DNA from: Ianthella basta
Taxonomy: Eukaryota > Porifera > Demospongiae > Verongiida > Ianthellidae
Length of the DNA stretch: 64,000 nucleotides
Direction: 5' to 3'
Assembly (NCBI GenBank): GCA_964019415.1
Contig: OZ025882.1
Coordinates: 3,330,427 to 3,394,426, forward strand
In this document: in pieces, positions 42,994 through 63,333 of the stretch
Layout of the letters: every line of letters begins with the position of its first letter
Position numbering within the stretch: position 1 is the stretch's first letter
The notes under the pieces: generated by a model
The model's database searches: none
Told to the model about the DNA's origin: nothing
Seen by the model: only the letters and a program-made list of their open reading frames with translations
Position numbers and translations under genes: made by a program

Positions 42994-43002
42994 TATAAAA
43001 GG
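42994..43002 (+). promoter_or_regulatory. TATA box of small-RNA locus 1
   Basis: TATAAAAGG, 30 nt upstream of the conserved GGCCAG start. The same word occurs at the same distance in loci 2, 3 and 4 (30, 30 and 31 nt). Confidence 0.7.
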
Positions 43003-43023
43003 ATGCTATCAGAACGCCTACAC

Positions 43024-61400: not shown

Positions 61401-63333
61401 TACGTACAGACACTCACTGGTATGCATACAATATAAGGATTCTTTGTACCCTTATTGAAAAGGTTTATTGTTTAGTAAATACTCAAACTTTGCCACAGTT
61501 TCGATCATCAAAAAGCATAATTGCCATCAGCAGATCTTTAGTAGACTTGCTGAGTGAGAAAAAGCCAGATTGCGTCTGTGGGTAGTTGGTGGATTCGAAC
61601 CACCGAGAAAGTTGAGAAAGAACCTTTGTAACCGCTACGAAGTACCCACACAACTTAGCTGGCCAGCAAGTGTGGTCACTAAAGCTGCTTATATAGGCAA
61701 GGCTGCTCCTCTTAATGTGGCCACTATTAAGCAGATGAAGGATGACACTATTATAAGTGATATCTGTGTGCTCTGTGTGTGTTTGGTGACATGTGTGTTC
61801 ATGTGTATGCTGCTCGATGGCGTACCAACCTTGAACTGTTCATGTGTCACCTCCGGTCCTTCCTTCAGGTACTTGGGCAGTTCCATCACAACACTGCGAA
61901 TGGCGTAGGTGAAGGGAGGAAGGCCCTTCACCACTTGGGACAGCGCTTCCTGTGCTCTCTGACGCACCTAGAAGCAAAGCACTCAGATACGTAACATACA
62001 TGCATACATGTGTACATGTTAATGTACAAGATACATACATACATGGGATAGCGCAATAATAATACTAACAATAATAATATGTACAGCAAAGATGTTGGAA
62101 TATCAAAATACATACAGTATATGCGCACATTGTAAGCAGTTGGTATCATACACTTGTAGACACACACAAACACAGACACACACATACATACACTGAACAC
62201 ATGTATACCCACACAATAAACAAGAACACACATGTGCCCACCAAAGTGATGGACACATGAGCACACAGCAAGCACACATACACACAGTACCTCAGGGTAG
62301 GTGTTGACACTCGTGCAAGCATACATACAGTACCTCAGGGTAGGTGTTGACACTCGTGCAAGCACACATACAGTACCTCAGGGTAGGTGTTGACACTCGT
62401 GCAAGCACACATACAGTACCTCAGGGTAGGTGTTGACACTCGTGCAAGCACACATACAGTACCTCAGGGTAGGTGTTGACACTCGTGCAAGCATACATAC
62501 AGTACCTCAGGGTAGGTGTTGACACTCGTGCAAGCACACATACAGTACCTCAGGGTAGGTGTTGACACTCATGCAAGCATACATACAGTACCTCAGGGTA
62601 GGTGTTGACACTCGTGCAAGCACACATACAGTACCTCAGGGTAGGTGTTGACACTCGTGCAAGCACACATACAGTACCTCGGGGTAGGTGTTGACACTCA
62701 TGTTGAGGAGGTGATGCAGTAGCTGCCGGTGGAGGACAGTCATAGGCGACAGGTAATTCTCAACCATCCTTCGCTACAGAAGTCAAGAAAGGGGGCCAGC
62801 GCACTGACAACACCAAAGGGTGTGTCTTCACAAGCACTGTAACACATACATATACACTTGTAGCAGTTCATCACAGCATGGCAGTGTACAGGGGAGTGGT
62901 AAGGTGCTGCAGGACCACAGGCCACACTATGTACAGGTGATCCCTACAATGTGCCCCACTTACCTCATGTTGAATGTACACACGAGATACTAGGACACTT
63001 CTTAGATGCTGTTTCCTTCTGTGAAGCTGTGAACAGCAAAGAGAGAAAAGTGTAGTTTCAATGCTCACCGACTTAACATTCATACACAGTGCACCCACTC
63101 AATGTCACACAGACATACCCTGTCAGACAAGCTCTTTCGTGTGAAGGCAAAGCTCTTCACCCTGCACAAGGAACAGGCGCTAGAGTCAGCTTACCAAGTG
63201 GTTTGGTGTACGTATTTGTGGTAGCAAGTACATACATACAACTAGGGCATCACTTGTATCGGCAGACATGAACTCACAACTTGTCCAATCTGTCTTTTGT
63301 GACACCAGTGTTGATCAGTAGGCACTTCAAGAT
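49326..63333 (-). CDS. PSME4: Proteasome activator subunit 4 (PA200), C-terminal half
   Basis: 29 exons read on the minus strand from 63333 down to the stop at 49326-49328, in one unbroken frame of 916 residues. Exons: 63278-63333, 63119-63161, 62964-63026, 62678-62773, 61830-61967, 57789-57881, 57600-57695, 56994-57157, 56591-56720, 56238-56319, 55961-56003, 55802-55900, 55586-55664, 55232-55357, 54769-54846, 54116-54190, 53925-54029, 53731-53822, 52970-53101, 52601-52776, 52358-52428, 52206-52262, 52002-52073, 51863-51916, 51448-51540, 50986-51060, 50793-50883, 50560-50696, 49326-49460. Recognised family blocks: [58 protein letters not shown] and the C-terminal VSPSYYA, whose last three residues are the HbYX-type motif that docks in the 20S proteasome. 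HEAT-repeat nuclear proteasome cap. The 5' half is outside the window. Confidence 0.93.
49947..50516. repeat. 21-bp minisatellite, ~27 copies
   Basis: Unit ACCGATACACCGCCCACCCC plus T, mostly perfect, with variants (ACCAATACA, ACACTGCCC). As 21 is divisible by three, both strands stay open (PIHRPPL and VGVGGVS repeats), but it lies in the last PSME4 intron and is not a gene. Confidence 0.92.
51754..51770. repeat. Poly-C run
   Basis: Seventeen C in a PSME4 intron. Confidence 0.9.
53103..53285. repeat. Polypurine tract next to a PSME4 acceptor
   Basis: About 180 bp of almost only G and A (GGGGA-type units) on the plus strand, hence an extremely long pyrimidine tract on the minus strand directly before the acceptor of exon 52970-53101. 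Confidence 0.9.
53534..53557. repeat. (CTAT)n microsatellite
   Basis: Five tandem TATC units in a PSME4 intron. Confidence 0.85.
56472..56579. repeat. (CA)n microsatellite after a PSME4 donor
   Basis: About 54 CA units; on the gene strand a (GT)n run that begins about a dozen bases after the donor GTATGT of exon 56591-56720. The His-Thr and Cys-Val open frames are artefacts. Confidence 0.95.
58262..58364 (-). ncRNA. Vault/Y-RNA-like small RNA, locus 5 (type II)
   Basis: Read on the minus strand: TATAAATAG begins at 58394, 30 nt upstream; the RNA opens GGCCAGCTTAG and closes CTGGCC before TTTTT (58264-58260). GCGGGTA pairs with TACCTGC, where the second pair is C-G instead of T-A, a compensatory change. 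CTTCGCAGTGGTTGC resembles an A box and TGTGGTTCGATCCCACA is a full T-arm with a B box. About 103 nt. Confidence 0.65.
58686..58789 (+). ncRNA. Vault/Y-RNA-like small RNA, locus 6 (type II)
   Basis: TATAAAAGC at 58655, 31 nt upstream; starts GGCCAGCTAAGTTGTGTGGG, ends GACGCAATCTGGC before TTTTT (58787-58791). T-arm GATGG TTCAATT CCATC has 5 pairs and a 7-nt loop. GTGGGTA pairs with TACCCGC (one U-G). Plus strand, opposite to PSME4. Confidence 0.65.
59297..59304. promoter_or_regulatory. CRE-like palindrome TGACGTCA
   Basis: A perfect cAMP-response-type site in a locally CpG-rich stretch, followed 70 bp on by an ATG (59373) whose short frame meets a GTAAGG donor. Could mark a promoter inside the PSME4 intron; no downstream exon was found. 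Confidence 0.25.
59563..59676. repeat. Long near-perfect hairpin
   Basis: TTAAATGCCG pairs with CGGCATTTAA, TCTGCG with CGCAGA, GATTTAGA with TCTAAATC, and the tip GGGCGC-TTC-GCGCCC is perfect. About 114 nt, of pre-miRNA or MITE size. Confidence 0.65.
59875..59936. repeat. GC-tipped hairpin
   Basis: CAAGTA-TTCGAG pairs with CTCGAA-TACTTG; inside are GAGTT/AACTC and GGGGCGCC-AG-GGCGCCCC. Same style as 59563-59676 and the short GGGGCGCC-TTC-GGCGCCCC at 60740-60758. Confidence 0.6.
60298..60650. repeat. ~180-bp tandem duplication
   Basis: Two related units (about 60298-60475 and 60481-60650) each carry GCTGTA-CTCGCAGAA, ACACGGCGAAA and a CG-rich GCGGCCATTT or GCCGCCATTT end. Diverged; no coding content. 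An AT-dinucleotide run follows at 60652-60695. Confidence 0.55.
60761..60858 (-). ncRNA. Vault/Y-RNA-like small RNA, locus 7 (type II)
   Basis: Minus strand: TATTAAAG begins at 60889, 31 nt upstream; AGCCAG at the start pairs with CTGGCT at the end before TTTTT (60763-60759). GTGGGTA/TACCCAC is intact and CTTCGCAGTGGT is kept; the T-arm GGTGG/CCATC holds with one wobble but the loop is ATCAATT. Weakest TATA of the set. About 98 nt. Confidence 0.55.
60900..61555. other. PSME4 intron, no gene seen
   Basis: No supported feature between small-RNA loci 7 and 8. Confidence 0.4.
61561..61664 (-). ncRNA. Vault/Y-RNA-like small RNA, locus 8 (type II, tRNA-like)
   Basis: Minus strand: TATATAAGC begins at 61695, 31 nt upstream; GGCCAG start, CTGGC then TTTTT (61563-61559). 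Inside, a near-cloverleaf: GTGGGTA/TACCCAC 7-bp stem, a D-like arm with TAGCGGTTA as in tRNA-Glu, AGGTT/AACTT stem with a 7-nt CTTTCTC loop (TTC at anticodon position), a 4-nt variable loop, and GGTGG TTCGAAT CCACC T-arm with a perfect B box. The extra outer stem and direct T5 stop argue against an ordinary tRNA. About 104 nt. Confidence 0.68.
62289..62718. repeat. 43-bp minisatellite amplifying an exon end and donor
   Basis: Ten units begin at 62289 and every 43 bp to 62676. The last one is the real 3' end of PSME4 exon 62678-62773 (SVNTYPE) with its GTACTG donor; the other nine lie downstream in the intron and each repeat the coding end plus the donor. 43 is not a multiple of three. Confidence 0.9.

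Follow-up and report, generated by a model that had tools for sequence, protein, structure and literature searches.

What are the short loci, alike in their ends but not in their centers, that recur on both strands within 19 kb of this sponge contig? A sequence-only reading of the window, meaning the whole 64-kb stretch of DNA that was analyzed, had described eight intact loci of about 91 to 104 nt and proposed a lineage-specific family of polymerase III (Pol III) transcripts, possibly a counterpart of vault or Y RNA. All eight were found at the coordinates and on the strands claimed, though measured lengths differed slightly, being 88 to 101 nt from the first base to the T run and 93 to 106 nt when five Ts were included. 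Seven of the eight began with GGCCAG and one with AGCCAG, and every locus ended in the closing CTGG and a run of at least five Ts. The inventory held for these intact loci but had missed a decayed copy (46395 to 46493, minus strand) and two 3'-end remnants. Judged from sequence, the loci are very probably vault RNA (vtRNA) genes of a demosponge, arranged as a tandem and inverted cluster in which eight intact copies flank a PSME4-like gene. The members of the cluster, with scores against the Rfam Vault model (RF00006), are as follows.

42907 to 42943, plus strand: probable vault RNA 3'-end remnant; repeat family D12; weak match to model R1 at 42866 to 42944 (14.4 bits, E = 0.086)
43024 to 43119, plus strand: probable vault RNA gene; TATA at 42994 to 43001 (−30); T5; 41.5 bits; eroded B box
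44073 to 44109, plus strand: probable vault RNA 3'-end remnant, tandem duplicate of 42907 to 42943; repeat family D12; no R1 match among those listed
44191 to 44286, plus strand: probable vault RNA gene; TATA at 44161 to 44168; 41.5 bits; transcript the same as that of 43024
46395 to 46493, minus strand: probable decayed vault RNA copy; model R1, 37.1 bits; 84% identity to 58261 to 58350; TATA and 5' arm degraded
48554 to 48653, plus strand: probable vault RNA gene; TATA at 48524 to 48531; 45.9 bits; eroded B box
48793 to 48885, plus strand: probable vault RNA gene; TATA at 48762 to 48769; 45.6 bits; eroded B box
58260 to 58364, minus strand: probable vault RNA gene; TATA at 58394 to 58387; 48.6 bits; A and B boxes without mismatch; T-arm-like hairpin at 58306 to 58290
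58686 to 58791, plus strand: probable vault RNA gene; TATA at 58655 to 58662; 36.4 bits; B box without mismatch; T-arm-like hairpin at 58746 to 58762
60758 to 60858, minus strand: probable vault RNA gene, divergent; TATTAAAG at 60889 to 60882; 29.8 bits (below 34); 17 of 17 stem pairs kept; B box without mismatch; T-arm-like hairpin at 60804 to 60788
61559 to 61664, minus strand: probable vault RNA gene; TATA at 61695 to 61688; 47.3 bits; B box without mismatch; T-arm-like hairpin at 61604 to 61588

The loci at 43024 and 44191 lie within a 1.39-kb tandem duplication (42671 to 44051 and 43841 to 45203, 95% identity) and their transcripts are identical, so the cluster holds seven distinct copies rather than eight; 44191 was left out of the structure analyses, which used seven sequences. 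A second long duplication in the window (45739 to 46214 and 57300 to 57806, 80% identity) adjoins the decayed copy, which offers a useful contrast with the eight intact loci. No further copy was found within the next 6 kb outside the window.

Membership in a known family was addressed with the Rfam Vault model. Seven of the eight loci scored above the gathering cutoff of 34 bits (36.4 to 48.6 bits; E values of 2.5e-4 to 8.7e-8 for the whole window), and only the divergent locus at 60758 to 60858 fell below it. Across the animal's own 209-Mb assembly (96 contigs), the same seven loci were the only matches. Because 49 of 7,689 first-look candidates were scored in that search, weak members elsewhere in the genome could have been missed, as the eighth locus was. 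In an alignment of all eight copies, a GGGTACTTCG block was invariant, with GRCGC ahead of the closing CTGG, and GTACTTCG, downstream of the A box, showed a single-base difference from the vtRNA context employed in one survey, TTACTTCG (PMC8824774). The description of the family as lineage specific therefore does not stand, since the loci match a known animal vault RNA family, and the genes may already be annotated in Rfam. The proposal of a vault RNA counterpart fared better, being supported by the RF00006 match, a panhandle with two-sided changes, an A box, a B box in four copies, a terminator, and the presence of MVP and TEP1 in the same genome.

The other half of that proposal, that the loci are Y RNAs bound by Ro60, could draw on their similar length, closing stem, and Pol III signals. 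The Y RNA model (RF00019), however, had no match in the window at its gathering cutoff, none in positions 40001 to 64000 at E values up to 1, and none in the animal's own genome (a search that matched in no control genome either), whereas the Vault covariance model did match the loci. A search of the genome for the TROVE domain returned a single match, which belongs to TEP1; no separate Ro60 gene was detected, although one split into exons could escape such a search. With TEP1 accounting for the only TROVE match and nothing matching the Y RNA model, the Y RNA half of the proposal is disfavored, and we regard it as extremely unlikely. The sponge loci resemble Y RNAs in being small, predicted Pol III RNAs with a closing stem and differ from them in lacking both a match to the RF00019 model and a detected Ro60 gene in the host genome.

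The inner stem had been given as GTGGGTA pairing with TACCCAC. The 5' side held in seven of eight loci (GCGGGTA in the other), but the exact TACCCAC was present in only four, and the remaining loci pair through G-U or two-sided changes. All folds of the seven distinct sequences contained the same panhandle, with z-scores of −2.27 to −3.42. The consensus panhandle has 17 pairs, all 119 of 119 cells were paired in the seven distinct copies, and four pairs were changed on both sides; when the partner strand was slid by 1 to 3 columns, pairing fell to between 28 and 46% (maximum, 46.2%). None of 500 shuffles reached the observed paired cells, double-change cells, or covariation score, whereas 52 of them attained the observed count of double-change pairs and 230 that of pair types. 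The inner five-pair helix of the Rfam model was broken in the copies at 43024 and 44191.

Sequence identity, expressed as the mean over the 21 pairs of seven distinct copies and compared with a background of random window pairs of like length, separated the ends of the genes from everything else. Identity was 0.87 in the 5' arm (background, 0.55), 0.82 in the 3' arm (0.56), and 0.70 in the TATA zone (0.50). The center, at 0.60 (0.57), and the flanks, at 0.57 (0.53) for −22 to 0, 0.55 (0.54) for −60 to −34, 0.58 (0.60) far upstream, and 0.61 (0.59) downstream, were near background. The profile therefore indicates that the arms and TATA were kept while the center and flanks were not, and a terminal panhandle closing a variable center is the architecture of a vault RNA. 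The same data bear on the possibility that the loci are vault RNA-derived pseudogenes, few or none of them expressed. One decayed copy and two remnants do lie in the cluster, but in the eight intact loci TATA, stem pairing, and T5 are all preserved against flanks and a center near background identity, and in the decayed copy the TATA and the 5' arm have degraded together. On this evidence a cluster of pseudogenes is very improbable.

Several copies, a T-arm-like B box, and one truncated, dispersed fragment on another contig (C23) would also fit a mobile repeat, SINE-like or derived from a tRNA, whose vault RNA score arises by chance. Exact matches to the 5' motif were, however, confined to the 19-kb cluster except for this fragment. 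Allowing up to three mismatches, the motif matched the animal's own genome 28 times, comprising the eight genes, the exact match on C23, and a further 19 that each carry three mismatches (a reversed control pattern matched once); model R1 had no match in the three of these 19 that were scanned. In the C23 fragment (L028, 1500 to 1590), the first ~40 bases are nearly equal to the 43024 copy, similarity is lost thereafter, TATA is absent at the usual place, and model R1 scored 15.7 bits (E = 0.01). Used as a DNA query, the 61664 copy returned only itself and the copies at 58686 and 60858, and outside the animal the exact motif had no match in collections of genome contigs and viral contigs. Some copies have longer flank duplications, the TATA-like box sits at a fixed upstream place in all eight, which is not expected on a retrotransposed transcript, and no A tails were seen by eye. 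The sequence-only reading had argued that these are not ordinary SINEs and had noted neither a poly(A) tail nor a target duplication; none was visible on inspection by eye, and since the exact 5' motif occurs nine times in the genome, as eight genes and one fragment, its argument is supported. Odds that the loci are a mobile repeat are accordingly remote.

If the loci are vault RNA genes, their signals should be those of Pol III. The claimed TATA-like box 30 or 31 nt upstream was recovered in every gene, at −30 in four and −31 in four, where a four-position slot would hold 0.0065 such boxes by chance at their frequency in the window. Because the copies are paralogues, the TATA common to them may be partly inherited. 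The internal Pol III promoter has an A box with the consensus TRGYNNAGNNGG and a B box with the consensus GWTCRANNC. An A box typical of vault RNA was found with no mismatch in one gene, one mismatch in four, and two in three, the best-scoring site lying at offset 3 in the genes at 58686 and 61664 rather than at 8. The B box had no mismatch in four genes, one in two, and two in two; very low B-box conservation was also noted for the vtRNAs described in PMC8824774. The T5 run in all eight corresponds to the T-run terminator of a vault RNA gene. A shared promoter with U6 was also considered. Of three U6-like matches, two exceeded the cutoff; judged by eye, both lack a complete U6 3' end and have TATA-like sequences at about −44 and −37 rather than −30, so the comparison is uninformative.

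The two halves of the cluster differ in these signals. In the four genes at 58 to 62 kb, the mismatch-free B box lies in the loop, seven bases long, of a hairpin with five pairs and the shape of a tRNA T arm. Counting both strands, the 64-kb window has only six T-arm-like hairpins with a B box in the loop, and four of the six are inside these genes. Two of the five hairpin pairs were changed on both sides among the four genes, a level reached by 64 of 500 shuffles, and with so few sequences the covariation is not beyond the shuffles. The four genes at 43 to 49 kb (three distinct) lack such a hairpin and have a best B-box site with one or two mismatches, while keeping TATAAAAGG at −30 or −31, a pattern from which we infer a promoter that may lean more on TATA. 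A more speculative view, possible but rather doubtful, is that the cluster captures vault RNA genes midway between promoter types, with the 58- to 62-kb genes as an ancestral class retaining the full T arm and B box and the 43- to 49-kb genes as a derived, TATA-run class that has lost the T arm and much of the B box, perhaps serving different partners. If true, a single early-branching animal would allow tests both of whether vault RNA has a tRNA-like root and of whether the copies divide labor among themselves.

The protein components of the vault particle were sought in the same genome. Six MVP-repeat matches fell in two places, four on C23 and two on C10, giving two MVP-like loci on different contigs; at the C23 locus, all four scanned frames contained MVP repeat or shoulder domains. 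TEP1, the vtRNA-binding protein, was encoded on C17 by an uninterrupted 2,698-residue frame with the TROVE domain and the TEP1 second and C-terminal propellers, and residues 973 to 1187 matched the PDB entry 11gz, "Telomerase protein component 1." This 8.1-kb frame (L040, 1092 to 9188, minus strand) is unbroken, while the MVP matches lie in separate short frames. With MVP repeats and a TEP1 frame found, the known shell and the known binder of the RNA are both in the genome, as expected of a host with vault RNA; as support for vault RNA identity, this is circumstantial. A search for vPARP returned 20 VIT-domain matches in the genome, candidates at the level of that domain.

Taken together, membership of the cluster in the vault RNA family is well supported, while any function is attributed by analogy with the family. 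Pol III would start near GGCCAG, recruited by TATA together with the A and B boxes, and would stop in the T5 run; TATA would carry more weight where the B box is eroded, as it is in four genes. TEP1 would then bind the RNA and load it into the shell formed by MVP. A large share of the RNA may nevertheless act outside vaults, as reported for humans, where most vtRNA was found outside the particles (PMC13404743).

The setting of the cluster is defined by a minus-strand PSME4-like gene between its halves. The frame at 53544 to 54071 matched the PSME4 HEAT domain (22.1 bits; Pfam cutoff, 20), a minus-strand match at 55022 to 55408 (15.9 bits) fell below the Pfam cutoff, and further minus-strand frames (two plus six) scanned for PSME4 had no match. 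Within and beside the cluster lie two tandem repeat arrays, one of 21-bp units at 49839 to 50640, open in several frames on both strands, and one of 43-bp units at 62186 to 62787, close to the last vault RNA gene. Elsewhere on the plus strand of the window are a reverse transcriptase frame (RVT_1, 3887 to 5122), a weak GIY-YIG match (34073 to 34669; 21.4 bits versus a Pfam cutoff of 22.6), and a series of receptor-like genes (15664 to 38841) with a repeated ectodomain (one scanned, with no Pfam match) and tyrosine kinase frames (two of two scanned), which looks like a local expansion.

The assembly also contains a mitochondrial contig (C96; 21,233 bases) with COX1 reading through nine TGA codons, an atp9 frame, and a tRNA-Arg with anticodon tct. 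ARAGORN placed 17 tRNAs in its first 18.5 kb, the rRNAs match bacterial models, and the order is trnF, small rRNA, trnG, trnV, large rRNA. Demosponge mitochondrial genomes are described as 16 to 25 kb long, with trnR(ucu), bacterial-like rRNAs, and a genetic code that has changed minimally; every species sampled except Amphimedon queenslandica has atp9, and the most frequent order is rns-trnG-trnV-rnl (PMC2444032). The contig thus points to a demosponge host, and the tyrosine kinase genes at 15 to 40 kb would also fit a sponge.

Published vault RNAs provide the context for these genes. The RF00006 family includes human vtRNA1-1, vtRNA1-2, vtRNA1-3, and vtRNA2-1 and members in Branchiostoma, Strongylocentrotus, Helobdella, Lottia, Macrostomum, and Fasciola (PMC8824774, PMC10491885), the flatworm vault RNAs having been added by PMC8824774. 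The sponge loci are like this family in length range, panhandle, an A box followed by TACTTCG, a B box in some copies, a T-run stop, and a local multicopy cluster, an arrangement described in primates and in a small number of other mammals (PMC10491885). They differ in having a demosponge host, in the position of the eight copies, which adjoin a PSME4-like gene and not the protocadherin locus, in the eroded B box of half the copies, and possibly in the TATA-like box of all eight. Vault RNA was also reported by Rfam in two Hydractinia genomes (PMC11067881), which likewise places it outside the bilaterians, in a cnidarian. Trypanosoma brucei, not an animal, has an RNA called a vault RNA and cited in PMC10491885. 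Among the matches listed from open-access papers, there was no sponge vault RNA, and the vault RNAs found were bilaterian (deuterostomes and some lophotrochozoans), from one hydroid genus by Rfam, and from T. brucei.

MVP is widespread in eukaryotes, while vault RNA, unlike its shell protein, has been hard to trace. The cluster suggests a very early origin within animals for the RNA component of the vault particle. Finding MVP, TEP1, and a set of vault RNA genes together in one sponge would place the particle, with all three parts, close to the root of the animals, and having intact promoters next to eroded ones would provide a test bed for how vault RNA genes switch on.
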